A stretch of DNA of 34,994 nucleotides from positions 1-34,994 of the forward strand of contig CALZAJ010000003.1 of NCBI GenBank assembly GCA_945613785.1, written 5' to 3'. The translations under genes and the position numbers were made by a program. The DNA comes from an uncultured Verrucomicrobiota bacterium (lineage in GTDB: Bacteria > Verrucomicrobiota > Kiritimatiellia > RFP12 > UBA1067). Positions 8,459-32,100 of this stretch are shown here, piece by piece; position 1 is the stretch's first letter, and every line of letters begins with the position of its first letter. The notes beneath the pieces are model-generated. The model saw nothing but the letters and a program-made list of their open reading frames with translations. It ran no database searches and was not told the DNA's origin.

Positions 8459-11400
8459 CTATTCGGTACGCTCCGCCTCAATCGGGAAAGACCCGTACTT
8501 CTTTATCGTGCCGGTTGCCAACAGACGCCCGCCGACCAGGAAACCTTGCACTTTCACGGTGTCGTACTTGAGCCGTCCGTCGGCAAGATAATAAAGTTTG
8601 AACGAGCCAGACACCGCAGCCGTGCGCGCGGTAAACTTGAGTTTGAGCGCCGAAAGATTGGCCGGGGGTTTGTTCGCGGACGTTACGAGCTTGAGCGCGC
8701 CCGTTGCGCGATCCGCCGATACGCGCCCGGAAGTGCGCGGCACCGACACTTTCCCGCGAACAACCGCAAAGTCTTCCGGCACTAACGCCACGCCATCAAC
8801 CGTTTCTTCATAAGAATTATAGCGAGGAATGTCGTAGACCAGCGAGTATTGTCCGTCTTCCGGCGCGGACACGCGCTCGACAAGCAAAGGCTGCCAGTTT
8901 TCTTCGGTCAGCGCCGCAATCTCCGCCGCGTCGCCATCGAGCCAGAAGACGAAGCCGAAATTGACGGACCGCTTGGAGTAGACGACGGGCACGGCGAAGC
9001 GATCGTCTTCGCCAAGAACTCCTTGCGTCGAAAGCGAAACCCGCGTTCCGTCGGGCAGCGTCCCAGAAACCTTGGTTTTCCCATAGCGGCCGATGGTGAG
9101 CGAAAGCCCTGCCAGCCCATTGCCCGTATCGAACAGGCAAAGCCAGTTGCCGAGGGGCATTTTCGCGACACGGGCTTTTTCCACTGCCGATTTCGAGCGC
9201 GAAAAATCTTCCGCCGCCTGGACGGAATACGATCCGTAATTCCCAAGCACGGCACGGTCGGTGAAGATCACTCCCGATTCGTCGAGCGGATACTCGTCCG
9301 CTCCGGCAACAAATCCGCCGCGGACGGTAGTTCTGCGCTCGCCGATTTTCGTTACGTAAATCGTGGTTTTAACTGTCCGCCCCGCATTTGCCTTCGTGGT
9401 CTTGGCCGCAATCAATCCGGCGATTTTGCCATCCTTCTCGATCCAGCCGTTAAAGGTGGCGGCGTAAGACGTGTCAACGGGCGCGACGGATTCGAGCGAA
9501 TACAGAACACGCTCGGTGCTATTCGTTTCGGACGGCACCTCTTCTTCGGGCGGTGGCTCTTCCACGGGTGGAAGGTCTTCCTCGGGCGGATCGACCGGCG
9601 ACGGATCGACCGGCGGCGGGTTGACTGGCGGCGGATTGGATCCGCCCCCTTCAGGCGGCGTTGGAGGCTCGGGCTCCTTCAATGTAAGCTTTGCCGACAT
9701 CGATTCAATCTGCTCGTAGTTCGTCTCGTCGCCGCTGAAACTTGCCGTGACGACATAAACGCCCGCCGCGACGCGTTCGTTGCCCGAATAGCTAACGCTC
9801 ACGCCCTCGGGCAAACTTCCCTTAATAAAAAGAGAATGCTGCTTGCCGTCAACCTCGAACGTGGCGTCGGTGAAAACAACCTTGCTCATATCATAGGCGG
9901 CCTTGGCAATCGACCAGGTGCGCACGATTGCGTTAGTGGTAAGATCGGGCCAGCGCGAATACGCGCCCAGTTCGATCGTCGCGGTGTAGGTGCCGGCGTT
10001 GGTGGCGGCGAGCACGCCTGCTGCCGAACAGCTCGAATCGATTGCGACGCCCTGTTGCTCCGCGCCGGTATAGACGAGATTGGTGGAAAGCTGCGGCCAG
10101 GCAATTATCCCCCACTTCTCGGGATGGAACGCGATATCGGGCGTAATCGTCAGCGCCGACTGAATCTGCGGCAGCGGCGCGTAGCCTTCCTCCCGCTGGA
10201 ACTCGGCAACCACATCGTAATAGCCGGCCGCTCTCTGGAAGTTGTTGCTGTAGACGATGTTGGTAACCCCGACCGGCCAGCAGGCCCTGTCGATGTAATT
10301 CGAAAAGACATTGCCGTTTTCATAAAACTCGTTGTCCGCAAATTCGGGTGCGACAAAAGTTTCGCTCAAGCCCTCGTCAGGAATCCAGCGGATGTTGTCT
10401 AACCAGACTTTATAGTCGGAACTGCTACTAATAGAATCATTCCAGATTTTCCATGCAAAAGTACTGCATGTCGCGCTATCGATTTTTTGCGTAACCGTTG
10501 TCCATTTGCCGACCGAGGGAGATGGTGGGCTGAAACCCGAGACTCTACTTCCGTTTTCGCCGAAAAGATAAAAGAAGGTTGGTTTGTTACCACCGGTGGA
10601 CTCCTTCCAGTCGAAAATCAATTTCCCATTCCCAGGGACGTTGCCGGAAATGATCGCGTCACTTTCTATGTTCGAGGCCAAAATCGACGAACCGCCGTGG
10701 GTGGATTCGTTCGTATCGATCGACCAGCATGAACCGACAGGTTCATTAAGGAGAATGAAAGTGTCGACGGCCTGCATCCAGTCCGAACGCGCATCGCTCC
10801 AGACGGCATAAAGTTCAACGACTTCATCTTCGGCTGCAATGTCGGAGGCAAGCTCGGCGCCGTCGGCTAATTCGACGCTCCCCGTCGGCGAGGTCGCCCA
10901 ACCGGAGAAGACGTAACCATCCTTGGCGAAAGTGCATTTCTTAAGTTTGTTGGTGGTGCAGCCTACGGAGAAAGACTGCATAAACATCGTGTTGTGGCCG
11001 CCGTTGGGGTGGAAGCGGACGCGATAGGCCGAAGCCGACCAGACGGCTTTCAACACAATCTCCGCCGCGTCGACGCCATCCATGATCATGATATTCGCGC
11101 CGTCGGCAAAGGCAATATCGACGCCATTGGTAGTCCACCCCAGAAACTCGCGCGAATTGAATTGGAATGCGTTGGCGGGCAATTTGGCCGACGTCCCATA
11201 ACGAACCTGCATTGCCGGCATCTCGCCGATGCCGCCGTTGGAATCGAAGCGGACGGAATACGCCCCTTCCGACCAGACAGCCTGAAGTTCGAGCTCGGCA
11301 CCATTTATGTCGGTCAGGTTTTTCACCGTCTCGCCATCGTCATAAGTGCCGCCGCCGGAGATTGTCCATCTCAGAAACTCGCGCGTGCCGTATTCAAACC

Positions 11401-12607
11401 CGACCGGCGGCAGATTCGTGGGCGTATCGTAGAACAGCACCAAATCGTCCATCTTGCCCGCCGCGCCGCCTGGATTGAAACGGATAGTATAGCTGTTCGC
11501 CGCATAAACCGCTCTGATGATCTTGTCCGCGATGATTTCATCAAAGTCTGCGTCCCACTTCTCGAAGTGGTAGCCCTTGGGTACGGTGGCAATCGGGGAT
11601 GTAGCCGCATAGCCCTCCTTCACCTTGTCAATCACGTTAGTCGATGCGCCTGTCTCGGTTTTGAAGCGGAACTCGACATCATAGACTTTACGCTCGCGCC
11701 ATTGGGCGTAAAGCGTTGTGAAATCGATATCGCTGGCAGTTACGGTATCGCCATTCGAGATAATAGCCCCGCCGGAAGGATAGGGCGACCAGCCAACGAA
11801 ATATTCATCGTTAGGCGGCGTGGGCTCCGGCAATGAATACTTCTCGCCGATTCGTACGACTATGTTTTGGGGACTCACCTTGCCACCTTGCGGAGCAAGC
11901 GCCACCTGAACGGCGCGCTTTTCCCAGATCGCGTAAAGCGTAACCGTGCCGTTCGTCGTCGCACCAAATTTCTCGCCGGCCTTGTCTAGCTCCTGGCCGG
12001 TGGTGAAGTCGGCTTTGACGGCTGCTTTGGAAGTAGACCAGCCGGCGATTTCCCAGCCCTTGCGGATAGACGAATTTTCCCAGGCTTCGATGCGCTCGGC
12101 CATATCGTCGCCTGCAGCCACGACCACGACATCGGTATAGACAACGCCCTTGGGTCCGTAAGCCGCAGTAAAATTGCCGACGTTGGGATTGTAGACGATG
12201 TCGTATTTGAGGGGCGAGAACACCGGCGAGAGATAAAGCGACGAACCCCAAAGCGGAGATTCGTCTTTATCCCACTCAACTTTTATCGTGTAGCCGGAAT
12301 ATGATTTTTTGATTCGCTCGTCCGGAATCGACGACAAGGTGGTTCCAGACCACGTCAAACCGTCCCACAAAATCCATTGATCGAGAGCATAGCCCTTCGG
12401 CGGCACGGCGGCGATGCTGAACGAGAAGCTGGACGAAAGAAGCTGCGTTCCGTAAGGAGAAACGGTGGAGTTCACATTCGCTTCCATTGCCCGGTTCCCG
12501 TCCAAGAAATAATACGGCTGGGTGACGGTTATTTGGGTTGTCGCCGCGTTGGCGATGATCCCCGTAACAGCGAACACAAAAACGAACGAATGTTTTCTCA
12601 GATTCAT
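8459..12607 (-). CDS. Exported InlB B-repeat (Listeria-Bacteroides repeat) containing protein with Pro-rich linker and C-terminal repeat modules
   Basis: 1382 aa; signal peptide [22 protein letters not shown]; several repeats of the type YxVRFxxNGGxGxM...FxGWxT...ELxAVWS; linker [43 protein letters not shown]. Confidence 0.85.
9591..9635. repeat. 15-bp tandem repeat (3 units) encoding the Pro-rich linker
   Basis: + strand tcgaccggcgacgga / tcgaccggcggcggg / ttgactggcggcgga. Confidence 0.8.
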
Positions 12608-12633: not shown

Positions 12634-14190
12634 TTATAGATTCTTGAGATCAAGCGCAAGCAGAAACTCGGGGTTCGACTTCGTTTTCTTCAACGAGTTA
12701 AGAACCGACTTCATGGCCGATTCAGCTCCAGCGTCGCTCAAGATGCGGCGCATGCCCCAGGTCTTCTCGAGTTCCATCGGATCAAGGAGGAGATCCTCCT
12801 TGCGCGTGCCGGACTTGTCGACGTCGATAGCCGGGAAGATACGCTTGTCCGCGAGACCGCGGTCCAGGACGATTTCCATATTGCCCGTGCCCTTGAACTC
12901 CTCGAAGATCACTTCGTCCATGCGCGAGCCGGTATCGATGAGACCCGTTGCGATGATCGTGAGCGAACCGCCGCCTTCGATGTTGCGGGCCGCGCCGAAG
13001 AAACGCTTCGGACGGTGCATCGCCATCGCGTCCACACCACCCGTGAGAATCTTGCCGGAGTGAGGCTGGACCGTGTTGTACGCACGGGCCATACGGGTGA
13101 TGGAGTCGAGGAGGATGACCACGTCGCGTCCGTTCTCGACCTGACGCTTGGACATCTCAATGACCATCTCGGCGACGTTCACGTGGTGCTGGGGCTCTTC
13201 ATCGAAGGTCGACGAAAGGACCATTGCCTTGGTGTTACGCTGCATGTCCGTCACTTCCTCAGGACGTTCGTCGATGAGGAGGATGATGAGCATCGCCTCC
13301 GGATGGTTCGCCGTAATCGCATTCGCCATCTTCTGGAGCAAGACCGTCTTACCGACGCGCGGCGGCGCGATGATGAGTCCGCGCTGACCGAAGCCGATCG
13401 GCGTGAAGAGGTCGATGACGCGCGTCGAGTATTCCGTCGGCTCCGTCTCGAGAATAATGCGACGGGTCGGGAAGGTCGCCGTCAGGTTTTCGAAATGGAC
13501 AACGCGGGCAGCCACAGAAGGCTCCTTGCCGTTGACGGTGTTCACATTGCCGAGACAGAAGAACCGGTCACGGTCGCGCGGGTCGCGAACAGGTCCCTCG
13601 ATGATATCACCCGTGCGAAGCGCGTGACGACGAATCTGCTGCTGGGTCACGAAGACGTCCTCCGGGCAGGCGAGGAAGTTGTTCTTCGCCGAACGGAGAA
13701 AGCCATGGCCTTCACGAACGATTTCAAGGCAACCGGACGCGAGAACCGCGCCACCCTTGGCGAGGTAAGAACGGATGGCCGCGAAAATGAGCTCGTGCTT
13801 CCGATAGGTTCCGAGCTCCTCGGGGTCCGCCCCCGGCATCATGCGATCGACAATCTGAGGGGCCGGCCAAGTCTGGATATCGGCCAGACGAAATTCAGGG
13901 AGCGACGGATCGCGATTGGCATTGGACGCTTCCTCGGGCTGCGCCGCGCGCGGCTCGGTCGGCAACGGCGCGTTCAAAAGAGGATTCACCGACTCGGCAC
14001 CATTGCCGCCGCGGATCGGCGAATTGTTCTTCTGCTGGGAACGGTGCGGCTGGCGCTTGTGGAACTGCTTCTTCTGATTCTGCTGTCCGCCGCCGCCATT
14101 GCCACCCTGAGACTGAGCCGGCGGATTGGCCGGAGGGGTGGAACGGGCTGGCTTTGCACTCTGTGCGAAAACGTCGAATTCTTCTGCCAT
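12634..14190 (-). CDS. rho: Transcription termination factor Rho with low-complexity N-terminal extension
   Basis: 518 aa; PIGFGQRGLIIAPPRVGKTVLLQKMA, LIDERPEEVTDM, DSITRMARAYNTV, TGGVDAMAMHRPKRFFGAARNIEGGGSLTIIATGLIDTGSRMDEVIFEEFKGTGNMEI are Rho signatures. Confidence 0.97.
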   Translation of the reverse strand: MAEEFDVFAQSAKPARSTPPANPPAQSQGGNGGGGQQNQKKQFHKRQPHRSQQKNNSPIRGGNGAESVNPLLNAPLPTEPRAAQPEEASNANRDPSLPEFRLADIQTWPAPQIVDRMMPGADPEELGTYRKHELIFAAIRSYLAKGGAVLASGCLEIVREGHGFLRSAKNNFLACPEDVFVTQQQIRRHALRTGDIIEGPVRDPRDRDRFFCLGNVNTVNGKEPSVAARVVHFENLTATFPTRRIILETEPTEYSTRVIDLFTPIGFGQRGLIIAPPRVGKTVLLQKMANAITANHPEAMLIILLIDERPEEVTDMQRNTKAMVLSSTFDEEPQHHVNVAEMVIEMSKRQVENGRDVVILLDSITRMARAYNTVQPHSGKILTGGVDAMAMHRPKRFFGAARNIEGGGSLTIIATGLIDTGSRMDEVIFEEFKGTGNMEIVLDRGLADKRIFPAIDVDKSGTRKEDLLLDPMELEKTWGMRRILSDAGAESAMKSVLNSLKKTKSNPEFLLALDLKNL

Positions 14191-14223: not shown

Positions 14224-14754
14224 TCAAGACCGTGATTTCAGCCAGTCGACGAAAGCTACGGCTTGAGCGCGTAGTTCTTCGGCAGTGCCGTCGTTCCTGA
14301 TCACATAGTGGGATTTTTCGGCCTTTTCCTCGACTGGCAACTGGGCTGCCAGACGGGCTTCGGCCTCATCGCGCGAATAGCCGCGCTTCGTCATCATGCG
14401 GGAGATTTGGTTCTCACGTGAAGATGCGATGCAACAAATTATATCATAATCCGACTGCCATTGCACCTCGAAGAGCAATGGAATGACGGCCAGGCGAAGA
14501 CGTCCGTTCGTCGATGTAACATTCAGAAAGGAGGAAATCTCCTCCCTCACCAGGGGGTGAAGCCACGCCTCAAGGGCCTTCCGCTTGATGGGATCGCCGA
14601 ACACCTCCGCGGCAATCCGCTTACGTTCAGCAGGGTTGGGAATCAATTGATGAACAACGTCATCGGCATCGATTGTCTCAATGCCGAGTTCGTTCAGAAA
14701 AGAGGAAAGGAGGGATTTGCCGCAGGCAATCCCCCCCGTAAGGCATATTCGCAT
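14224..14754 (-). CDS. coaE: Dephospho-CoA kinase
   Basis: 176 aa; MRICLTGGIACGKSLLSSFLNELGIETIDADDVVHQL P-loop and DADxxxH motif; HPLVREEI. Confidence 0.93.
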   Translation of the reverse strand: MRICLTGGIACGKSLLSSFLNELGIETIDADDVVHQLIPNPAERKRIAAEVFGDPIKRKALEAWLHPLVREEISSFLNVTSTNGRLRLAVIPLLFEVQWQSDYDIICCIASSRENQISRMMTKRGYSRDEAEARLAAQLPVEEKAEKSHYVIRNDGTAEELRAQAVAFVDWLKSRS

Positions 14755-14768
14755 ATGCTGAGCTTTGA

Positions 14769-17700
14769 TTAGTCCTCGCCCTCGGGCGCCGCCTTGACGT
14801 CGGCATCCGTCGTCTCGTTGGAGCTCATCGTGACCTCGCGGCCGCGAACATCGACAAGGCGTGTGGTGACGAACACCAGGAGGTTGCGCTTGGTCGTCTG
14901 CTCGGAGTGGCTGCGGAAGAGACGCCCGATGAACGGCAGGTCGCCGAGGAACGGAATCTTGTCGTCCATCGCCTTACGGTGCTCGGTGATGAGACCGCCC
15001 ATGACGATCGTGGCGCCAGGATAGACCGAAATCTTCGAGTTGATGTGGCGGGTGTGGAAGAACGGCTGTTCCATCGGCGCATCGTAATAGGTCATGTTCT
15101 TGTCACCCGAGGCGGAGAGGTTCTTCATCGCCTGCACTGCCGCGTCGCTCGCTTCGGTGACGATCATGTTCTTGAGCGCCGTGTCAATTGTCCCGCCGAC
15201 GGAAGCGATGATGTCGGAGAGACCAGTGAAGATCGTGCCGATACCTTCGAAACTCTGGAGCGAGCTGTTGCCGGTGAACGGAATCTTCATGCCGTAGTTC
15301 TTCCACGTCGGCTCGTCGACGACCTGGGTCTCGAGCTCGAGGTCAATGAGGTTGCCGTCATCGGTGAGCGTCGGGATGACACGGAGGATGACGCCGACTT
15401 CACGCATCGTGAATTCCTGCGGCTCGACGACTGCGAGAATCGCAGACTGGCTGCCGCCCGAGTTGCCGCCACCGTTGTTGGAGGAGCTCGACTGGAGCTG
15501 AACTTCGTAATCGGTCGGGTAGATGTATTCCGTGACGACCTTCATGACCGCTTCCTGACCAGACTGCGTGAGCACCTTCGGCGCGGAGAGAAGATCCGTG
15601 TCGCTGCGCTGCGAAAGCATGTGCAGGATCATGGAGAGGTCCGCACCGCCGAGGAACGCGTTGATGCGCATAAACTGGTCGTTCTGCGAATTCGATTCGC
15701 CGGAAATGTGGTTCGACAGCGTCGAAAGATAGCGCATGTTCGTGCCGTAGGCCGCGTCCCCACCGATGCCGTTGACGCCCACGCGCCCGTGGGAAGCCGA
15801 CCCGCTGCGAATCCACGAAGCACCGTTGGAATTAGCGTAGGTGGTCTTCGTTGAAGTAGAACTCGTCGAAGAACTCGTCGACGTGGATGTTGTCACCCCG
15901 CCGTTGTTGATAACGCCGCCGGTCGAAGTGGAGGAGCTGCCCGTGCCCGTAGAGCTGTCGGTGGTCGTCGTGGTCGAGCCCGAGGCCGAACCCCAGGTTC
16001 CGCCGCGCAGGCCCAACGCGCGGGAGACATGGCTGCCGAGGCCGAGTGTGTAGTCGCTGTTGAGAATCCATTCAAAACCGAGCGAATTGAGATCTTCCTG
16101 GCAAACTTCGACGAAGCGCGTCTCAATCTCGATGAGCTTGGGATCGGCGTTCATTTCCGTCAGGGCCTTCTCGAGTTCGGCGAGGTTCTCATACGTGTTC
16201 TTCACGCGGAGCTTGCCGATTGTCTTGATGTACATGATCGAGGAGCCATCGGGCCATTCCACGCCGAGGAGCTTGAAGAACTCCTTCCAGTCGCGGCTCT
16301 GGTTGCCGTCGCTGTCGTCATCCTTGCTGGAGCTACGGGTCACGAAGCCGCTAGACTGCATCTCCTTCATTTCGGAGGAAGCGGTGTCCATGCGCTCCAT
16401 GAAGGCCGCCACGACAGGATAGCTGCGGGTGACCATCTCCTCAGTCGACATGCCCTTCTCCATGACGAGCACGATCGAATCCTGAACCTTGAACTTGTAG
16501 TTAACGGATTCGCAGACGAGCTTGAGAGCATCGAAGAAGGTGATGTCGCTCGCGGTGATCATCGGGATGACCGGAACGCCAGCCTGATCGGAGGAGCCTT
16601 CAGACTCTTCATCTTCGCCGCCAAAGCCATCGGACTCCTCGGAGGCCGCAGCCGACGCCGCATTGCGGAGCGTGTCAGGCGTCTTCAGCATGAAGTTAAA
16701 GCCGCGTTGATCAACCGGGAGATCCGGACGGTCGAAGTCACGGGACGCGCTGCGGAAGAAGTCAACCGCATCGATGATCGTCGCCGGCGGCTTGAACGAG
16801 ATGGACGGAAGACGCATCTCCTTCATACGCTTGATGATGCTCTGCTCGAGCGCACGCTCAGGATCGTTGTCGAGCGGACGCTTGACCGTCTGGCTCTTGA
16901 TCTGCTCAAGTTCCTGCGCGTTGGGCGCGTAGACCGGACGCCACGCCTTGTCGACATCGGCAATCATTCCGTCGCGCGCGGCCTTGCGCTCGAGTTGGTA
17001 GATCGTACGGCGCTTCTTCTGAATCTTGTCGCGGAGACGGAGCGCCTCCTGATTGTACTTGTCCTGAACGAGAACGAGTTCGCACTCGTCAAGCGCACGG
17101 TCGAGCTCGCGGGTCGCAAAAAGCTGGCTGGAACGCTTGAGGTGCTGCTGGATCTTCGCACGGTTGGCCTTGTAATCCTCGTCGTTACGACGATGCGTCA
17201 CTTCAGAGACGTCAATCTTGCTGGCTTCCGGATCATCGGCGGCCAACCAGGCTTCGAGCTGACGGCGGGCCTTCGGATGACGCTTGGCAACAGCCTTCTC
17301 CATCAGCTTGATGGCGCGGGCGCGGCGGCCAGTGGAGTCTTCCTGAATCGCGGCATGATAGAGACCGGCGGCAATGCCGTTCGCGCACTCCTTGCGGAGG
17401 TGCTGCATCGCCGGCTTGTCGTTCAGGAGCTTGTCAGCGATCGTGTAGTGACGGGTCGCTTCAATGAATTCTTCAGCGGCCATCGCGCTACGGGCGAGCT
17501 CGACTTCGCGCATCGCCTCAGTATCGAAGGCCCTACGGCGCAATTCTTCAGTCGTACGGAGGTTTTCAATGAGTTCGGCATCCGGACCCGTGTAACGCGG
17601 AGTGGCCGGTTTAACAACCGCAGGCGTCTCAGCCACCGCGACAGGGGTTTCCTCGGCCACAACGGCAGGAGTTCCCTCGGCCACCGCAGGCGTTTCGGCA

Positions 17701-18089
17701 ACGGTCGCCGCCGGGGTTTGCTGTTCGGACTGAAGGTCATTCAAAAGCGAGAGAACGCCATCGTCGGCCTCATCCTTCTTCTCCGCGACTGCGGGGACCT
17801 CGGCAGGCTTCTCTTCGGCGACCTCAGCAGCCGGCTCCTCCGCGGCTTCAGCCTCGGCAGCGGGTTCCTCCTTGGCCTCTTCCTCGGCCGCAGCCTCGGG
17901 TTGAGACGCCTCCTCTGCAGGCGCAACTTCGCCATTCTTCTCTGTCTCGGCCGCAGCGGCCTGCTTGGAAGAATCGCCCTCGAGATCCTTCAAAAGATCG
18001 ACGAGATCGTCTTGGGCATTGACGGTTTGACCGATGGCGACAAATGCCATCGTCGCGCTAACTGCAACCAGATTCCTCAAGTTCATCAT
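14769..18089 (-). CDS. Type II/IV secretion secretin (GspD/PilQ-like), Amuc_1098-like
   Basis: C-terminal secretin signature IVMGGLITEHRKAMDDKIPFLGDLPFIGRLFRSHSEQTTKRNLLVFVTTRLV; Ala/Glu-rich N-terminus and TPR-like region. The ORF track starts at GTG 18098, but AAGGAG (18101-18106) fits ATG 18089 better. Confidence 0.9.
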   Translation of the reverse strand: MMNLRNLVAVSATMAFVAIGQTVNAQDDLVDLLKDLEGDSSKQAAAAETEKNGEVAPAEEASQPEAAAEEEAKEEPAAEAEAAEEPAAEVAEEKPAEVPAVAEKKDEADDGVLSLLNDLQSEQQTPAATVAETPAVAEGTPAVVAEETPVAVAETPAVVKPATPRYTGPDAELIENLRTTEELRRRAFDTEAMREVELARSAMAAEEFIEATRHYTIADKLLNDKPAMQHLRKECANGIAAGLYHAAIQEDSTGRRARAIKLMEKAVAKRHPKARRQLEAWLAADDPEASKIDVSEVTHRRNDEDYKANRAKIQQHLKRSSQLFATRELDRALDECELVLVQDKYNQEALRLRDKIQKKRRTIYQLERKAARDGMIADVDKAWRPVYAPNAQELEQIKSQTVKRPLDNDPERALEQSIIKRMKEMRLPSISFKPPATIIDAVDFFRSASRDFDRPDLPVDQRGFNFMLKTPDTLRNAASAAASEESDGFGGEDEESEGSSDQAGVPVIPMITASDITFFDALKLVCESVNYKFKVQDSIVLVMEKGMSTEEMVTRSYPVVAAFMERMDTASSEMKEMQSSGFVTRSSSKDDDSDGNQSRDWKEFFKLLGVEWPDGSSIMYIKTIGKLRVKNTYENLAELEKALTEMNADPKLIEIETRFVEVCQEDLNSLGFEWILNSDYTLGLGSHVSRALGLRGGTWGSASGSTTTTTDSSTGTGSSSTSTGGVINNGGVTTSTSTSSSTSSTSTKTTYANSNGASWIRSGSASHGRVGVNGIGGDAAYGTNMRYLSTLSNHISGESNSQNDQFMRINAFLGGADLSMILHMLSQRSDTDLLSAPKVLTQSGQEAVMKVVTEYIYPTDYEVQLQSSSSNNGGGNSGGSQSAILAVVEPQEFTMREVGVILRVIPTLTDDGNLIDLELETQVVDEPTWKNYGMKIPFTGNSSLQSFEGIGTIFTGLSDIIASVGGTIDTALKNMIVTEASDAAVQAMKNLSASGDKNMTYYDAPMEQPFFHTRHINSKISVYPGATIVMGGLITEHRKAMDDKIPFLGDLPFIGRLFRSHSEQTTKRNLLVFVTTRLVDVRGREVTMSSNETTDADVKAAPEGED

Positions 18090-18117
18090 ATCGAGCACTG
18101 CTCCTTGATTTTGAAAT

Positions 18118-18146
18118 ATTATACCGAAATTTTAGTTACTGTTCAA
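18118..18146 (-). promoter_or_regulatory. Candidate sigma70-type promoter for the secretin gene
   Basis: Minus strand TTGAAC (18141-18146) - 17 nt - TATAAT (18118-18123), upstream of SD AAGGAG and ATG 18089. Confidence 0.55.
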
Positions 18147-19272
18147 GTGCTTCGAGGGTTTTCTTTCCCTGCACAGGATGCTCAACCGTGACCTTCGCAC
18201 CCTTGCCTTCGCGCTTGATTTCAGTGACCTTATACTTCGTTCCGTTCAGGTCGATCGTATCGCCGGGAACGACTACGAATTCCTTTGTGCCGTTCCGTTC
18301 GTAGACCAGCGTCGCCTTGGCGTCAACCGCGACTTTGCGCTTGCTGGCACCGACGACCAGGACGAGCTTCTTCTTGTCGGACTTGCGTTCGACCGTGACC
18401 TCCGAGGCATCAACCTCGCGTTCCAAAGCCTTTTCGCCCTTTCCAGCCGCAATTTTGACCTTCGCGATCTTCTTTGCGTAGCCCTTGACGACGAATCCCG
18501 TCTTGCCGATGTCTTCGCCGGTCTTCATGTCATAGCCGAGTCCGAGCTGGCCATAGGCGTTCTTCTTGGACATGTCCTTGAAGTAGAAGCGGTAGTCACC
18601 GCCCGGCAACGGAGTCACGCGCTCGCAGAAGAACGGCAGGAAGGTCTCCTTGAGCGGAAGAACGAGCTTGAGCGAGTCCCGGTAGTCGGGGTGCGACGTG
18701 GGATCGGACGGATCGGTGCCGGCCAGGAACTCCTCCATGTTCGTGAAGCCGTCGCCGTCCTTGTCCTCGTCGACGTCCGCGGGGTTCTTCGGGTCGAGAC
18801 CGTACTTGTTCTCGTACTCGTCGGAGAGCCCGTCACCATCGGAGTCAAGCGTGATCTTGATTTCGGCCGGCTGAACCACGCCGCAATCGGCATAGGTGCA
18901 GACCTTGACGCCGAAGGGAATCGGACGACCGCAACCCTTGTGCTCGGATGTCGGATCGCCCGCTTCGCAGAAAACGCGGCGACCCGAGGCGAGGAAGCTC
19001 TGTTCGGACTCCGCCGGGGTCAGGGCCTTCGACGGTTTGTCAAAAACCTTGAGGGCTGCCTGATATTCGGACATATCCACCGGCTTGACGCCGTCCTTCT
19101 TGCCGCCACGGCGAATCTCTGCACTCGCCTCGGCCGCAGCCTCTTCAGGATCTTCGCCGCAGACGACGGTCATGACGACGATGCCACCCACCAGCGCCAG
19201 CGCGCCGGCACCCAGCAACAGCCAATCCCAGTGCGCAGCCAGGAAGCCTTTCTCGGAATTTCCGCCGATCAT
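18136..19272 (-). CDS. Pilus-cluster inner-membrane protein with TSP3-type Ca-binding-like repeats and a Cys4 cluster (Amuc_1099 position)
   Basis: One N-terminal TM segment (WDWLLLGAGALALVGGIVVMTVV); DSDGDGLSDEYENKYGLDPKNPADVDEDKDGDGFTNMEEFLAGTDPSDPTSHPD; CEAGDPTSEHKGCGRPIPFGVKVCTYADCG. Start set to ATG 19272 (track starts at GTG 19275); overlaps upstream stop as TGATG. Confidence 0.75.
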   Translation of the reverse strand: MIGGNSEKGFLAAHWDWLLLGAGALALVGGIVVMTVVCGEDPEEAAAEASAEIRRGGKKDGVKPVDMSEYQAALKVFDKPSKALTPAESEQSFLASGRRVFCEAGDPTSEHKGCGRPIPFGVKVCTYADCGVVQPAEIKITLDSDGDGLSDEYENKYGLDPKNPADVDEDKDGDGFTNMEEFLAGTDPSDPTSHPDYRDSLKLVLPLKETFLPFFCERVTPLPGGDYRFYFKDMSKKNAYGQLGLGYDMKTGEDIGKTGFVVKGYAKKIAKVKIAAGKGEKALEREVDASEVTVERKSDKKKLVLVVGASKRKVAVDAKATLVYERNGTKEFVVVPGDTIDLNGTKYKVTEIKREGKGAKVTVEHPVQGKKTLEALEQ

Positions 19273-20369
19273 CACTTCACCTCCTTGGTCTCTTCAGCTT
19301 CGGCCTTGGCCTCTTCCGCCTTCGTCTCGGCGGACGGCTCCGCCTGAACCGTCTCCGCCGCGGCGGTCTCCTCGGCCTCCTCTTCCTCACGCGCCACGGA
19401 CCGCAGCGAGGAATAGGGCTTCGTGCCCTTGCCGAAATCGTAGGTCGTGACCGTCAATTCGACCGTGAACGGGACGCCCGTCGCAGGATCGGTGACCAGG
19501 CCCTTCTTGTTGGCGGCCTTCTCGTCGCCTTCGGCGTTCGCATCCTCGCCCTCTGCAGAGTGACGCTTGTTGCGCTTTTTCTTGCGCGCGCTTTCCTTCT
19601 CCTTGCCGCCACCCAGAATCGTGGCCAGGGCGTCGTCGGCACGCAGGAAGCTGAGAGCGTCCACCGTCACGAAACGCTCTTCCGTGATCAAGCGGTTGAT
19701 GACTTCGACCAGCGCGGCCGGACGGACCGTGAACTTGAAAGAATAGGTCTCGGTCGAAGCCAGCGGAGCCTTCTCCTCAACGACCTTCTTCTGCTGACGC
19801 TGACCCCTCGTGGGCTTCGGCGCTTCGACGACCTTCTTCTCGGCGACCGTCACGTTCTGGAGCTCCAGGGCACCGGACTCGGCAATGAGCGAGACGAAGT
19901 GATAGACCTCGGACCACTGACGCTGGTAGGTCGCGAGCTTGTCGGACTCCGGCATGTTGCCGCTCGTGATGAGCGGGAAGCCGAAGTTGAAGCCCTTCTT
20001 CACCAACCGGCCCTCTTCCGCTTCGCCCGGCAGCTTCGACAGACGACGGGCGCCATCGACCATGATCTTCTTGAAGCTGTCAGGATAGATGCCCGACTCA
20101 ACGGTCAGATCGCCCGCGGAGACGCGCTCCAACGCGTCATCATACCAGTCCTTCAGCGCCTTGGCGTTCGCCTCGATCGCCTTGATGGACTCCTGCGTCG
20201 GGGGAATCGCGCCGCTGTTGACGCGCTCGGCCGTGCCGATCAGACCCTCGAACTCATCCGCGATGTCGGTCTTCTGACCCTGCGCGGAGAAAATCAGGTA
20301 CCCGATCACGCCGGCCGCCACGAGTGCGCCACCGCCGATTCCGGCCATTATGGTCTTGTTCTTGTTCAT
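19272..20369 (-). CDS. Amuc_1100-like pilus-associated membrane protein
   Basis: 365 aa; N-terminal single TM (IMAGIGGGALVAAGVIGYLIF), coiled-coil-prone region, low-complexity insertion before a terminal VPFTVELTVTTYDF strand segment. Position and layout match Amuc_1100 between the secretin side and PilM. ATGA overlap with upstream stop. Confidence 0.65.
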   Translation of the reverse strand: MNKNKTIMAGIGGGALVAAGVIGYLIFSAQGQKTDIADEFEGLIGTAERVNSGAIPPTQESIKAIEANAKALKDWYDDALERVSAGDLTVESGIYPDSFKKIMVDGARRLSKLPGEAEEGRLVKKGFNFGFPLITSGNMPESDKLATYQRQWSEVYHFVSLIAESGALELQNVTVAEKKVVEAPKPTRGQRQQKKVVEEKAPLASTETYSFKFTVRPAALVEVINRLITEERFVTVDALSFLRADDALATILGGGKEKESARKKKRNKRHSAEGEDANAEGDEKAANKKGLVTDPATGVPFTVELTVTTYDFGKGTKPYSSLRSVAREEEEAEETAAAETVQAEPSAETKAEEAKAEAEETKEVK

Positions 20370-22078
20370 TTGAACTGCATCTCCACTACAAACTGTTCAA
20401 CGCAACCGTCCTTGCCGAAGTCGGAGGACTCGATGACCTTGACGGACTCGGCGACGATCGCCGAGTTCTCACGGAGCTTCTCGGCGACGATCATCGAAGC
20501 CGTCTTGGCCTCGCCTTCGGACTTCGCCGCCGCCTTCTTGACGAAGTTGGCGATGTCATCCTTCCAGCCACGGATCGTCACACGACGCACAATCACTTCG
20601 GTCGTCACGGGCTCGGCCCTCTTCTTTCCGGGCTTCGACGTGTCAACGGGCTGCGTGACGGTCTTCTTGACCTGCTCCCACTTCTCGACCCAAAGCTCGT
20701 CACCGAGCGCCTGACAGATCGCATTGAAACGCGGACCCAGCACGCTGCGGCGCTGAATCAGTCCCTTGAGTTCCGCCGCAGCCGCCTCCTTGGCGTTCAG
20801 GTCGGCCGTCGCGGACTCGATCCGGCGCTGATTGGACTGCAGCTGCGAAACCTCGCCCTGAATCGCCTCGAACTTGGCCTCCTCGACCGCCACGTCATGC
20901 TTGAAGCCCAGAAGAACGCAGACGAGCGCCACGACGAACAACAACGCCGCGGCACCCACGAACGGGATGCGGGCCACCTCGGCACGGGCATCCAGCAGGG
21001 ATGCGGGCATCAGGTTGATCGCAATCGTCGCCTGGCCGGCCGCATGGAGCGCGACACCTGCCGTCGCGGACAGGACCGCCGCATCCGCCGCGACCGCTTC
21101 GGCATCAACGCCCGCACCAAGCGAAATGCGCTCAAAGGGATTGAGGAACTCGACCTCGATCTGGAGGGAGTCCCGGAAGAACGCATCAATCTGCGGCAGG
21201 AGAGCCGAACCGCCCGTCAGATAGAGCTTGGTCGGCACGCCGCCGCCCTGCTGACTGCGGTAGAAGTTGATGGAGCGCGAAACCTCGGCATGGAGACGGG
21301 TAAGGACCGCACGGCAGACCTTGGAAAGGCGGTCCAGCGTCTCATCCTCGTCCTCCGTGACACCGCCCATCGAGACATAGGCGCACTCACGCTTGATGCC
21401 TTCGGCTTCCTCGAGCGTGCAACCGAGCGCCTGGGCGATTTCCTTGGTGATCGTGTTGCCGGCGATCGGAATGGAACGGTTATAAAGCTTCTCATCCTCG
21501 GCGATGATCAGCGAGGCCGTCTTCGCACCGATGTCGAGCACCATGACGCAACCCTCGTCGCCGCGGTTCGCCTTGAGCGCATTCGTCACCGCGATCGGAG
21601 CGGCATCGACAAGCATCGGCTGGAAACCGGCCGCCTGGACGGCGTCGGTGATCGCCTCGACCTGTTCGGTCTTCGCGGCCACGATCAGGACGGCCTTGTC
21701 GCCGTTCGCCGTGTCCCCAAGGACCTGACGGTCGCAGATCATCTCATCAATCGGGAACGGGATGTTCTGCTCGATCTCGTAACGGACCAGCTGGTCGAAC
21801 TTGCCCTGGTCGCTGCCCGAGTCCGGAATCGCGGCGAAACGCGGGAAGACCATCTGACCGGAAAGGGAGACCGCGACCGGACCGGGCTTGATGCCCTTCT
21901 CACGGACGATCTCGAGCAGCGCCGGGGAAAGGACCGTGTCCGCATTGCCCGCATCGAGCGGAGCCGCGAGCGAGGCGGTACCGTAGTTGACCATCGTCAA
22001 CGACGCGCCGCTGGACTCGTATTCGGCCAACGCAATCGCCGAATAGCCGATGTTCAGAGTGAGAAACTTCTTAGCCAT
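20366..22078 (-). CDS. pilM: PilM-like actin-fold ATPase fused to a PilN-like domain (Amuc_1101 position)
   Basis: MAKKFLTLNIGYSAIALAEYESSG...VLDIGAKTASLIIAEDEKLYNRSIPIAGNTITKEIAQALGC...LYLTGGSALLPQIDAFFRDSL...ERISLG is PilM/FtsA-like. C-terminal INLMPASLLDARAE + TM + coiled coil resembles PilN. Start set to ATG 22078 rather than the overlapping upstream start at 22135. Confidence 0.85.
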   Translation of the reverse strand: MAKKFLTLNIGYSAIALAEYESSGASLTMVNYGTASLAAPLDAGNADTVLSPALLEIVREKGIKPGPVAVSLSGQMVFPRFAAIPDSGSDQGKFDQLVRYEIEQNIPFPIDEMICDRQVLGDTANGDKAVLIVAAKTEQVEAITDAVQAAGFQPMLVDAAPIAVTNALKANRGDEGCVMVLDIGAKTASLIIAEDEKLYNRSIPIAGNTITKEIAQALGCTLEEAEGIKRECAYVSMGGVTEDEDETLDRLSKVCRAVLTRLHAEVSRSINFYRSQQGGGVPTKLYLTGGSALLPQIDAFFRDSLQIEVEFLNPFERISLGAGVDAEAVAADAAVLSATAGVALHAAGQATIAINLMPASLLDARAEVARIPFVGAAALLFVVALVCVLLGFKHDVAVEEAKFEAIQGEVSQLQSNQRRIESATADLNAKEAAAAELKGLIQRRSVLGPRFNAICQALGDELWVEKWEQVKKTVTQPVDTSKPGKKRAEPVTTEVIVRRVTIRGWKDDIANFVKKAAAKSEGEAKTASMIVAEKLRENSAIVAESVKVIESSDFGKDGCVEQFVVEMQFK

Positions 22079-22089
22079 TGCTTGCTTCC

Positions 22090-22806
22090 TTACTGAGCGA
22101 CCATCTCGTAGTCGTTCGGATAGACCATCGCCCAAATCGTCTTGGAGCGGTCAACGAGACCCGCGCGACGCTCGACGAACGGCTCGCCGTTGGGCTGCTT
22201 GGCATCCATGATCTTCGGATTCTCCCACCACTTGGTGTGGCTCTTGATCTCGTTGATCTGGCTCTCGCTGTCTCCGCCGACAACCTCACCGTTCGCATCG
22301 GTGATCACCAGACCGTAGGCCTTGGGCTCGCCGTACTGCTCGAGGAAGGACGGATGGGCACAGACGGAGGCCGCGTGCGTACCGCGCGGGATGTTCACGT
22401 AGGTGACGGTCTGGCTCATGTAGGAATAGGGCGCGAGCTTGGCGCGGCCTTCCTTGTCATTCACCGTCGCGCTCTTCGTCTCGAGCAGGACGTGCCAGGT
22501 GAACGTCAGCTGGTCGATGCACTTGTCCATCGTCTGGTACTTCGTCTCCATGACGATCCACCGACGCGGTTTGCCGTTCCAAGACGGACCCATCGGCGAC
22601 TCACCGATCGAGGGCGCAACCGCCGTCGACGAGCGACCGAGCTTCGGGAACTGTTCCACGCGAAACTTGATCTTCGCACCGCCCGCCGCGAGGTCCTCGC
22701 CGCCCGCCGCGATCACGGGACCCTTCTTCGGGCCGCGCGCCTTGGGAGCCGCCATTGAAACCGCAGCCGCGAGAGCCGCCGCCGTCAAAATCATCGCCTT
22801 CTTCAT
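22090..22806 (-). CDS. Exported protein of the pilus-like cluster (Amuc_1102 position)
   Basis: 238 aa; signal peptide MKKAMILTAAALAAAVSMAAP; first gene of the five-gene block, ending 11 nt before pilM. Confidence 0.65.
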   Translation of the reverse strand: MKKAMILTAAALAAAVSMAAPKARGPKKGPVIAAGGEDLAAGGAKIKFRVEQFPKLGRSSTAVAPSIGESPMGPSWNGKPRRWIVMETKYQTMDKCIDQLTFTWHVLLETKSATVNDKEGRAKLAPYSYMSQTVTYVNIPRGTHAASVCAHPSFLEQYGEPKAYGLVITDANGEVVGGDSESQINEIKSHTKWWENPKIMDAKQPNGEPFVERRAGLVDRSKTIWAMVYPNDYEMVAQ

Positions 22807-26137: not shown

Positions 26138-29100
26138 TTACTGTTCGATGACGACCTTGTAGAAGCCGCTCGTGCCGTTGTCCTCCGGCAGCTCGATGGC
26201 CTGAGCGTCGGCGCCGATCTTGACCGTCGCGGACTTGACCTTGCTCCAGTCGGCTTCGAGCGTGTCCTTGTGGTAGACCACACAGGTGACCTCGGTCGGG
26301 GCCGTCTCGAGCTGTCCGTAGAGACCCGTCGCGAGCTCCTTCTGTGTGCCGTCGACCTGGATGACAAGCTTGCCGTCCTCGAAGCCGATGGAGGAGATCG
26401 TGACCGAGTCGACCTCGGACTCGACCGTCAGCCTGCCGGACTCGTCGACCGAAAGCGAATTCGGATCGACGTTGAGCGCAAGCGCCGCGTCCTTCGGCGA
26501 AGAAAGCGTATAGACGACTTGCGCGCCCAGTCCATCGCCCGTGGCGCCGGCGCCAAGCTTCACGGCGAGGTTGTTCGCCAGCGATTTCATAACCGCGGCA
26601 TCGCCGGGGAGAGTGGCATCGATCTTGTCCGTGCCGTTGAGAAGCTTGCCGCCGTTGGTGGCAACCTCCCAGGCGTCGGGCAGATTGTTGCCGTTGACAT
26701 CCGTATCTTCAATGTAGAGTAGCGCCGTTTCCGAGCTCGTCCCCGTATCGCCCACGACTATAGCCGCGGGAGCATAAGGCGCGTCTGAAGATTTCTCGCG
26801 CGAGCAGACATAGCCCCACGATTCGAAGCTGTCGCGCACGTACGCATTCCCGTAATTCTTCGAATCGAGCCAGGCCATGATGTAGTATTTGCCGCGCGGC
26901 AGACCGTAGACGAGCGCATTGGCAATATGCGCAACTTTCGCGGATGTCACCGAGGAGGTGTTGGTTACCACCGTGCGCGAGACGGGCGTGCCGCTGAAGT
27001 CCGGCGTGCCGTACGCAGCGACGCGGACCACCGCATCGTCGAGCGCGGCCTTGGGACCGAAGTATTTGACCGCCACCGGCGCGGAGCCGCTGACGTAACC
27101 GTTCGCGGGCGCGCTCATACGGAAGACCGGGCCTTCGGACGACCAGAAGTCGCTCTTGAACTTCGAGTTGTACATCGTCACGCGCCATGAATAGTTCTTG
27201 TCGTTCTCAAGCGTTTCGCCGACATACGCTTCGGATTCGAAGGTGTAGGTCTTGTCGGACGCCATCGGCGGCGTGCGGCGGATGCCCGAATCCCAGATGG
27301 TCTTCGCGCCATCGAGAATCTGCACGCGGAAGGCGGAATACGAATTCACGCCGTTCATGGTCCACTTAAACGTCGGATGCGAAGCGTTGACGATCGACCC
27401 TTCCGAGCCCGGAGCGATCGCCACCGGACGCGTGCGGTTCTTTGTCGAGTCGAGGTGGCGCACCGTGGCGATCGAGAAGAGGTTGTTCGTCGTATCGGTT
27501 TCGATAGTGCCGTTGCCCATTACGATCCGGTAAGTGACGTTGGTCGGATCGCCGCAATACTCCTTGACATATCCGTTTTTGACCACCTCTTGTTCAAAGT
27601 ATTCCCAATCGAGATCGAAGACGTTATCGCCCAGAACATCGCCCTCGAAGAAGAACGAGCGCTGATCAAGTTCGATCCACTTGTCGACGATCACGCGGTT
27701 GGCGACGCCGACCTGGTCGACGCCCCACCCATTAATGAGCGTGCGGATAACGCGAATTCGTTCGTACTTGCCGCCAGAAGGCTCGCCGGGGAGGAGGTTG
27801 CGGTTGTCGCCGTCTTCCGTTCCGTAAAGGACGAAGCGGTCGGACAGGCCGGTCTTGATATCCGCGCGGGTGATAACCGGGCTGACATCGGTAAGTTCGA
27901 TTTCGCCCTTCGCCGAATACCAACCCACATTGATTCCGCGAACAAAGCCCAAGGGCTCGCCAGGAGTGTAGGTGCCGGAGTTGTCGAGATCGATAAAGGC
28001 AACAATCGAGTTGAAGCCTTCCTTCACATAGCCGCTTTCGGGCTTGGCGAAGACAAGCGTCTGCTTGCCGCTCGCAAGGCTTTCAACTGGCGTTGCCTTG
28101 TAGACGGCGTCGGGCACTACGAGATCGGCGCTGGTGTAGGTTTGGATTACCACCGGCGCGTAGGCGGCGACATTCTGGGCTTCGCCGGCTGTGCCGGAGT
28201 TCGTCTCCCCATCGGCATTGCCACCGGTGGTCAGCACCTGCTGGCCGTTGTAATAGAACGTGAGATAGATTGTCGGCTCGGGGCGTCCAGCGATGCCGCT
28301 GGTGACAACCGTGTTCGTATCGTTCGTAGAAGCGGCCGCGAAGTCGCGGTAGCGGCGCTCGGCGAAATTGGTCCAGCCGTCGTCGTCGTTGTCGGTAAGC
28401 TGATCCCAGGCGAACCGGTTCGAGAACTCGGTGCCGACTTCGTCTTCCCAATCGTCCTCAATCATATCGTTGTCAGTGAAGATCTCACCGGCATAGAGCG
28501 AGCCGATCTGGTAGAAGTAATCGAGGTTGAACGGATCGACCGAGAAGGCGTTGTCGGGGTCGAACTTGACGCCGAGGTCAAACACCTCCGAAAGGAGATA
28601 TTCAACATAGTTGCAAAGCCCGTCGCCGTCTTGATCGTCCATCGCGCCGGCGCCCTTGATGTGATACTTGAAGGCCATGGCGTCGCCAATGCCATCGCTG
28701 CCGGTGTCGCCGGCGAACGGATCGGTCGGATGGTAGCCGCCGTCGTATTCCTGATACATCGTAAGCGTGTCGGCGTCGGCATCGAAGCTGCGGTCATCGC
28801 GATTCCACGGCGAGTGCGGCGCGGCGGCGAGGCGGCAATAGGCGGGTGCGCCCTTGTCGTCGTTGCCGAACATCGTGTAGAGTTCCCAGCCGTCCAGCAC
28901 GCCGTCGGCATCCTGATCGATCTGCTTGTAGCCCGTCACAATCTCCTTCTTGTTCGTGATCGCTCCGACCGCGAGGAGGTAATCCGCCACGTAGGTCTTG
29001 TCCTTCTTCGTGAAGTTCTTGGAGTTGACCCACTCCGTGCGCGGAATCCAGCCGTTCGCCGTGTTGGAGTTGAAGCCGAACTTCGAGTAGACCTGGGCGT

Positions 29101-32100
29101 GGACGAACACGATGTTCTGCCAGCCGTAGCCCGCGTAGCCGTTGTCCTTGAAGCTGCTGTCGGCCGTGTTGATGACCTTGAAGCCGGAGCCGGCCTGGAA
29201 GGTCACGTTGGTACCGATACCGAAGAGCTTCTGCTTCTTCTTGCCGTAGTAGTAGGTGGACATCAGCGAGGTGATGTTCTCGGCCGGCTCGCCGTTGCGA
29301 ATCGGGCATTCGGTCGGGGAGAGCTTCGTATCCTCGGAGAGGTAGTCGCTCACCCAGTACCAGGCCGCGTCGTTCTTGTTCGTGCCGGTGCCGATGTAGA
29401 CGAGGTAACCCTTGGCGGTGGCGTAAGCCATCACGTCGCGCTCCAGCCATTCGCCGCCGTTGTCGAGAACCGGATCTTCATCGTCCGTATCCGGGACGTC
29501 GTCGCCGTCGGAGTCGGGCTCTTCATCGTCCGTATCCTTCGCGCCTTCAAGCGGATCCTCGATCTCGCCGAACTCAGGAGCGACCGGGTTGAAGATGCCG
29601 TACTTCTCGTAGAAGTCTTCGTCGCGGTCATAGATGCCGTTGTCGTTCCAGTCGGTATCCTGGAGGTAGACCGTCGCGGTCTCGCTCGGGTTGAGCTTGG
29701 CGAGCAGCGCGCGCGGCTCGAAGCCGTACTCGGTCTCACCGAGACGCGTCACATAACCCCAGGCGTCGTACGGACGGCGAATCTCATTGTTCGCACGGCC
29801 GTCGTCGGGATTCTTGACCGCCCAGGCGGCAACATAGTAGGAGCCATTCTCACGGAGGCCGGAGATCGTATTCGTCACGCCGGTCGTCTGGCCCGTGATG
29901 ATCTTCACGGGATTGACGAGGTCCTCGCTCTCGTAGACCGCAACGGTGATGCCGTCGAGGGAGTCGAGAATCGGATGAATGACCTGGACATCGAGCTTGC
30001 CGTTGAAGTTCTTCGCCGCGTTGACGCTGAACTCCGCGATCTCGCTCCACTCGGTCTCGTCGTCGACGACCGTGTCAGGACCGCCGAACTTGTCGTTACC
30101 GAGGAGGATGCGGACCGTGTGGGTGCCAACGTCGAGGTTGGAGCCCATGAGCTCCTCGAGGTCGAGCGTCTTACGGCCACGCGCAACGCCCGTGAGCGGG
30201 AAGCCGCCCTCGTCGCCGAACTCAGCGCCGTCAACCTCGATCCAGAAGCGGGTATAGATGAAGCCATCCGTCGGGATCGTGAAGGAGATCATCGTGTCGC
30301 CGACGAGCGAATCCGCCGTGCCGATCACGTTGTTGGCGCGGTCACGCTTGAGCGAGTAGTGGATCGTGAACTCCTCGTTGACCTGCTGGTCAACCGTCTG
30401 GAGGGTGATCTCACCGGTCTCCTCGTTCACGACCTGGACCGTATAGTGGTTGAGGTTGGTCACGCTGATCGTGTTCTGGTTGTCATTGAGCGCACCCGTC
30501 TCACCGTCGACGATGCGCGGCACCGTCAGGCGGACGATCTCATACGTGACGGACTCGAGGGTTGTCGGATCGGACGCAAGGTCGAAGTCTTCCACCAGCA
30601 TCTTGTCGAGGCCGATGAACTCGTAGGCCTTGTTATCCGGATCTTCCGGATCTTCCGTGAGCATCCATTCCTCAGGATACACGCAGTCGCGGTTGACGTT
30701 GTTCCAGTACTTGCGGAGGAGCACGCCCTTCGGGGTGATTTCCTTGCCGTTCTTCTTCGTGCGGACGAAGCCGATGAGCTGGTAGACCTCGTCATCCTTG
30801 ACAAGCGGGATCACCGGGAAGGCCTCGTTCTTGTCACCGAGCTGGATGGAGATGTCGCCACCCTTCCAGCCAACCGTGGTCTCGGTCGTGCCGTAGGTCA
30901 TCTCATAGGAGAACTCGACCGCCTGCGCATCGGCGGGAGCACCCGCCTCAGCGCCGCCCTCGGCCTCGCCGACGACGTACGCGCGGAAGAGCGCCGCACC
31001 CTGCTTGAGCGAACCGGCCGTAGGCTCGGCGAGCGTCACCTGGGCGATGCCGCCGCTGAACTCGGCAGTGACGTTCCACGTCGCCTGGAGTTCCGTGCCG
31101 TTCTCCGGGAAGGTCGGATTGACCTGGAAGGCCTCGACGATCACCGCGAGGGTGTCGTTGCCCGCATAGCGGAGCGTGAGGTTCATCGTCGGCATGATCT
31201 TGCCGCTGAAGTCGTGTTCGACCATCCAGACTTCCGTTGTGACCGCGCCGTCATCGGAGACGACCTCAGTCGCGTTGGAGGTGGTGTTGGCGTAGCCGTA
31301 ACGCGCCGCGGACCAGTAATCCCAGCCCGTCGCCATCGAGGCCGTGCCGGCGCCCTGGAGGGCGTCCATGCCGAGGGCCGCGCGGGCTTCGATCTCGATG
31401 AACTCAGCCGCGTTGAAGCGCTTGCCGAGGTAGGTCTTGACGCCACGGTCCGTGAAGCTACGGAAGTAGTCCGGCGTCACGCCGTCGGAGAACGCCTTCG
31501 TCAGGTCGATGTCGGCGAGCGAGGTCGGATCGAGGTAGTAGCCGAGCATTTCGCCCAGCGCGTGGACCTGATCGAGATCGTCGTCAGCATAGTACTTGTC
31601 CGGCGTCACGCCGAAGTTCTTCGCCACCGCGTCGGTGAGGTAGTCGAATTCCTCGGGATCGCCCGTCAGGAGTTCGCTCTTGAAGAGCTCGTCGCGGACG
31701 GTATACTTGTTCCACGGATCGGTCGGCTGCAGGCCACGATTGTATTCCTTGTAGTTCTCAAGCGTGTCGCCGTCGTTGTCGCTGGCGCGATCGCCGTATT
31801 TCCACGGGCTGATGGCGGTGCCGTTCGTGAACGTCGTCGCGTTCATCTCGTTCGGACCGAACATCACATAGAGCTCCCAGCCGTCGCTGACGCCGTCCTC
31901 GTCGAGGTCGGTGTTGTACGGCTTGAGCGTGTAGTTCTTCCAGAGGTTCTTGATGTTGACTTCCTTCTCGTCGCAGATGCCGAGCGACTCGAGGTAGCGG
32001 ACGACGAGGTACTTGTCGAGCGCCGTGAACGGCTTGGTGTTCACCGCGTCAGGACCGGCCACTGCCGTGAGCGGGTTGAAGCCGAACACCGCATAGACCT

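Follow-up and report, generated by a model that had tools for sequence, protein, structure and literature searches.

The systems closest to the one treated here are found in Akkermansia and in type IVa pili. In Akkermansia, the gene cluster, the effector Amuc_1100 and a PilQ role of Amuc_1098 have already been published (PMC5332112, PMC4960237). Under the name MUL2 the locus was described in Akkermansiaceae and neighbouring orders, with 1099 and 1100 called uncharacterised, and coaE and rho were reported to follow the secretin gene in Akkermansiaceae (PMC13174399); in the accessible part of that paper neither Kiritimatiellia nor PilB is mentioned. The second system is the PilMNOPQ alignment complex, with the structures 3jc8 from Myxococcus xanthus and, for PilO, 2rjz from Pseudomonas aeruginosa.

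Here we describe a five-gene operon on the minus strand (22806-14769) of a 34,994-nucleotide stretch of DNA, the window, from an uncultured Kiritimatiellia bacterium of the phylum Verrucomicrobiota (assembly GCA_945613785.1, contig CALZAJ010000003.1). The window is contig C3 of its own metagenome-assembled genome (G000; 1.76 Mb, 71.5% complete). The operon is a real, divergent member of the Amuc_1098-1102 (MUL2) type, which is hereby extended to Kiritimatiellia; no published description of the locus in this group was found. With a probability of roughly three in four, it encodes a divergent Kiritimatiellia form of the Verrucomicrobiota alignment complex and secretin for type IV pili, the motor being encoded elsewhere. 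No open paper treating Amuc_1100 together with PilN was found, and an earlier remark on PilO in the crystal-structure literature is possible.

Family assignment and distribution of the locus

Each of the five genes matches the corresponding NCBIfam family, in the order Amuc_1102, 1101, 1100, 1099 and 1098 (Table 1). This layout had been recognised in an earlier note on the window, and both the order and the tight junctions given there (11 nt, ATGA, TGATG and 46 nt with the likeliest starts) were reproduced exactly. Only the 1099 match exceeds its equivalog cut-off, those of 1098, 1100, 1101 and 1102 lying below theirs, so the locus is a divergent copy, as the note had called it. The two middle proteins are recognised as Amuc_1099 and Amuc_1100 by their family matches and, in the latter case, by fold, and the secretin belongs with the Amuc_1098 family, not with an unrelated system.

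As a further comparison, profiles were built exclusively from the taxonomic order of the window, containing no Akkermansia sequence, and reversed-sequence decoys served as control. One protein of the Akkermansia locus used for this comparison is all but identical to the Amuc_1100 of the crystal structure. All five Akkermansia genes were found by these profiles (1098, 2.6e-129; 1099, 1.8e-23; 1100, 1.4e-11; 1101, 1.7e-113; 1102, 1.4e-10), whereas the decoys gave no match for four of the five profiles and a best E-value of 0.15 for the fifth. Chance resemblance is therefore excluded.

For the analysis of synteny, 60 loci were fetched from the order, class and phylum of the window. The five-gene order is constant in nearly all of them wherever the contig is long enough; exceptions are a few loci in which 1102 was not recognised, some with a tandem second secretin gene, and one locus (L100) where overlapping gene calls blur the order of 1100 and 1099. 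Downstream of the secretin gene, coaE and then rho follow in the window as well as in Akkermansia and numerous other loci, and the published synteny figure for Akkermansiaceae agrees with the present loci in this respect (PMC13174399). Five families, their order and the coaE-rho flank are thus shared with Akkermansia MUL2 (PMC5332112, PMC13174399), whereas the upstream flank of the window locus, ackA-pta-SIS, is different. A match to the Amuc_1101 family at E<=0.001 is present in 372 of 388 genomes of the phylum, part of these being weak generic PilM matches. Judged from gene content and order, the five-gene locus is nearly phylum-wide in Verrucomicrobiota.

Named relatives of the window's 1101 protein are metagenome-assembled genomes of Kiritimatiellae and Lentisphaerae/Verrucomicrobia, many of them from rumen, goat, sheep, yak and other gut samples; the genus-mates of the window come from rumen and gut. 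A search of plasmids with the same protein returned distant PilM matches only. In genome G240 the operon is apparently lost, but this is likely an assembly gap because rho is absent as well. A supposed loss in G302 was rejected, the contig beginning 484 bases before the secretin gene. In G121, where 1101 is weakly matched, the 1100 match is split into two pieces 1 base apart (C1, 2775033-2775696), possibly by a frameshift or decay.

Comparison of the five proteins with pilus components

The second gene had been noted as PilM-like, which the Pfam match confirms (Table 1); its PilN half had gone unnoticed. Positions 1-350 of the Amuc_1101 family profile match M. xanthus PilM (3jc8_Ma, 6e-69) and positions 356-541 match PilN (3jc8_Na, 6e-11). 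With both matched as consecutive halves, the protein is a PilM-PilN fusion. The window copy consists of an actin-like cytoplasmic PilM part, one transmembrane segment and a periplasmic PilN-like part, so that both PilM and PilN of a type IVa alignment complex are represented. Pfam detects PilN in 9 of 50 family members.

The 1100 protein contains an N-terminal transmembrane anchor, a PilO-type coiled coil and an alpha/beta domain. Its AlphaFold2 model was calculated from a 55-sequence alignment without templates (mean predicted local distance difference test, pLDDT, 80). In a Foldseek search of the PDB the first ten places are all taken by chains of Amuc_1100 (E 4e-8 to 1e-6), in line with the likeness to Amuc_1100 that had been suggested for this 365-aa protein. 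This fold match is not fully independent, because the alignment contained Akkermansia rows; the order-only profile is. Next in rank is M. xanthus PilO (3jc8_Oa, 3.8e-4), and P. aeruginosa PilO (2rjz) is matched with E 0.04 and a probability of 0.99. A single-sequence PDB search with the 1100-like protein gave no match, while family profile and fold search succeeded; identity to the window copy among relatives outside the order is roughly 9-20%. By a crude motif count, a signal-peptidase pattern occurs in 12 of 55 members, compared with 33 of 49 in the 1102 family. The N-terminal hydrophobic segment, which mostly lacks such a pattern, hints at an anchor in the inner membrane but does not prove it.

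The 1099 protein comprises a transmembrane anchor, a cysteine cluster, a calcium-binding region of TSP3 type and a C-terminal beta domain. The cysteine cluster is a putative zinc ribbon. Neither this cluster nor the double TSP3-type motif was matched in Akkermansia 1099. Although the model is confident (pLDDT 89.5), no fold match in the PDB was obtained at E<=0.001 with Foldseek. A 2949-aa open reading frame at 26138-34987 (-), which probably begins outside the window, upstream of its edge, contains repeated TSP3-like segments that match the 1099 profile (best 1e-18), and a relative of it lies upstream of ackA-pta-SIS in most loci of the same family. Its product is a possible surface partner or substrate.

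A Secretin domain is present in the 1098 protein, as expected for a PilQ-type secretin. Between the two halves of this domain the window copy carries a long low-complexity insertion rich in Ser, Thr and Gly (residues ~715-790). No AMIN domain was found among the 25 families listed, and Secretin_N or STN occurs in some of the relatives only. TPR repeats are present in 15 of 19 relatives; Pfam detects none in the window copy. In other pili, the role of secretin pilotin falls to TPR proteins, PilF/PilW among them. By this analogy it is a reasonable inference that the TPR-bearing 1098 secretins carry a built-in pilotin. Tandem Amuc_1098-family copies occur in several other lineages (L108, L109, L123, L125, L129, L130), and in Akkermansia genome G024 a second copy lies distant from the operon (L192, 6900-9425).

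The secretin gene is preceded by a promoter-like site (Table 1). The pattern TTGA-N(18-21)-TATANT occupies this position in 30 of 47 loci of the window's relatives, the window included; of 9400 stretches drawn at random from these loci, 27 contain it. Since the motif is conserved at one place to this extent, the secretin gene probably has its own promoter in the lineage of the window. Kept across genus and family (L212-L264), the site suggests a separate dosage control of the secretin. Akkermansia yielded no such site, in contrast to the Kiritimatiellia relatives.

The 1102 protein possesses a Sec-type signal peptide, and the family profile matches the Amuc_1102 structure 7dsz (E 3.9e-45). A role as pilin was rejected: most members show a Sec-type cleavage pattern and none of 49 carries a strict prepilin motif, which open reading frames adjoining PilC genes do carry. 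The published likeness of Amuc_1102 to an archaeal pilin is reportedly a resemblance in fold.

Compared with PilMNOPQ, the operon contains equivalents of PilM, PilN, PilO and the secretin in the PilM-to-secretin order. It differs by the union of PilM and PilN in one protein, by TPR repeats that in most relatives are part of the secretin itself, by the lack of a recognisable PilP and by the additional exported protein 1102 before PilM.

Location of the motor and alternative explanations

Pilin, PilB/PilT and PilC genes are absent from the window, as the earlier note had correctly stated. A search of the whole genome places them on other contigs, with five PilB/PilT-type matches (C63, C97, C40), PilC-type genes (C5, C40, C28) and 11 prepilin-type matches. 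On C5 (L197, 1-9707) a PilC gene is followed by at least seven proteins with prepilin motif, and a similar cluster exists in L201; this run is a candidate filament cluster of the genome.

The clearest gene counts come from three complete Akkermansia genomes. Each has exactly one PilM-family gene, namely 1101, one PilC with two T2SSF domains, two PilB-type and two PilT-type ATPases, seven prepilins, one of them directly after PilC, and two secretins, which in G024, the genome checked, both belong to the 1098 family (second copy, 985 bits). Because no other PilM-type alignment complex for this motor is detectable in the complete genomes, the operon is most likely the type IV pilus alignment complex with its secretin. 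Likewise, 1101 is the only clear PilM in genomes of the window's genus. A sample of 69 genomes includes 34 with a clear 1100 gene, and every one of these also has PilC; the eight genomes without PilC all lack a clear 1100 gene. Since the sampled genomes share ancestry and many of them had been picked for the absence of 1101, this co-occurrence is a support and not a test statistic.

With no ATPase, platform or pilin gene in the operon or seen in the conserved flanks, a stand-alone envelope complex could be considered, a channel or scaffold that spans the envelope and serves secretion or display at the surface without a pilus ATPase. We regard this as improbable, since the operon tracks PilC, Akkermansia has a complete motor and no other PilM to go with it, and PilM, PilN and PilO parts serve to engage the motor in known machines. 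Both possibilities had been left side by side in the earlier note; the co-occurrence with PilC, the Akkermansia gene counts and the motor genes on other contigs favour a pilus motor encoded elsewhere. Another alternative is a type II secretion-like system, in which a GspL-M-C-D analogue with a short pseudopilus would export folded enzymes instead of building long pili. The PilM-PilN fusion recalls the plan of GspL, Pfam detects T2SSL in 10 of 50 members of the 1101 family and T2SSM_b in 4 of 55 of the 1100 family, and the motor ATPases score alike for GspE and PilB. The top structural and profile matches are, however, PilM, PilN and PilO, Akkermansia possesses PilT-type ATPases, no GspC-like part was found by Pfam or fold, and the genome of the window already has a separate GspM-like cluster, so that this system, too, is unlikely.

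Several observations weigh against an alignment complex of a type IV pilus. The 1099 protein shows no similarity to PilP of type IVa pili or to the GspC-type HR-domain protein of type II secretion by Pfam, PDB profile or Foldseek; the PilP identity was dropped on these grounds, and 1099 holds the position of PilP with no evidence for PilP ancestry. The likeness of 1100 to PilO is found mainly in the fold, with weak support from sequence, as Pfam matches PilO in only 2 of 55 family members. The motor genes do not lie beside the operon in the window, and the ATPases of its genome cannot be assigned with certainty because of a second cluster on C63 (L196, 2701-7606), which contains a PilB-type ATPase, a 670-aa secretin and a GspM-like protein. 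PilC also occurs in about 27 genomes in which no clear 1100 gene is present; most of these had been selected for the absence of the operon, and relatives of PilC also work in type II secretion. The C63 cluster further includes small anchored proteins and a partial PilM match (1.8e-6).

If the operon encodes a pilus alignment complex, its five proteins would assemble into one machine. In 1101, the cytoplasmic PilM part would bind to the PilB/PilC side of the motor, while the PilN part joined to it would build, together with PilO-like 1100, a coiled-coil frame in the inner membrane. The periplasm would be bridged by 1099 in place of PilP, with the 1098 secretin as the outer-membrane gate. Filament and motor would be supplied by prepilins, PilB, PilT and PilC from other loci; 1102 may be an exported accessory. 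The machine might serve the attachment to glycan or feed surfaces.

Neighbouring genes and biological meaning

Apart from the operon and its coaE-rho flank (Table 1), two further large genes were observed on the minus strand. The first (314-5557) encodes a probably exported 1747-aa subtilase (Peptidase S8) with a C-terminal MBG domain, the second (8459-12607) an exported-looking protein of 1382 aa with Listeria-Bacteroides repeats (Flg_new).

Table 1. Features of the window locus with coordinates and supporting matches (E-values)
Feature	Position	Strand	Likeliest start	Evidence
Amuc_1102-family exported protein, 238 aa	22090..22806	-	22806	NF042424 3.3e-7, below cut-off
Amuc_1101-family PilM-PilN fusion, 570 aa	20366..22078	-	ATG 22078	PilM_2 4.6e-40; NF045709 4.1e-117
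Amuc_1100-family protein, 365 aa	19272..20369	-	20369	NF038287 7e-9; Foldseek
Amuc_1099-family protein, 378 aa	18136..19272	-	ATG 19272	NF042425 1.3e-20; TSP3_bac 1.2e-10
Promoter-like site TTGAAC-17-TATAAT	18118..18146	-		3' end of 1099 gene and gap before 1098 gene
Amuc_1098-family secretin, 1106 aa	14769..18089	-	ATG 18089	Pfam Secretin 4.3e-32; NF042912 1.4e-124
coaE, dephospho-CoA kinase	14224..14754	-		Pfam CoaE 1.6e-36
rho, transcription terminator	12634..14190	-		read from sequence

A locus discussed as a trait of Akkermansia and Verrucomicrobiales now reaches uncultured Kiritimatiellia of rumen and gut and, being nearly phylum-wide, it is therefore not mucin-specific. For the phylum as a whole we lean, with some reserve, towards one rebuilt type IV pilus machine in most Verrucomicrobiota, in which a PilM-PilN fusion and a TPR secretin are combined with Amuc_1100 as PilO, and the unrelated Amuc_1099, often with metal-binding motifs, replaces PilP. 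Each gene of the operon thereby gains a testable role. Amuc_1100 has been studied as a probiotic effector of the outer membrane or cell surface, whereas a PilO-type protein of the inner membrane is predicted here. If this is true, Amuc_1100 would be a part of the inner-membrane assembly, and host cells would meet it only after lysis or vesicle release.

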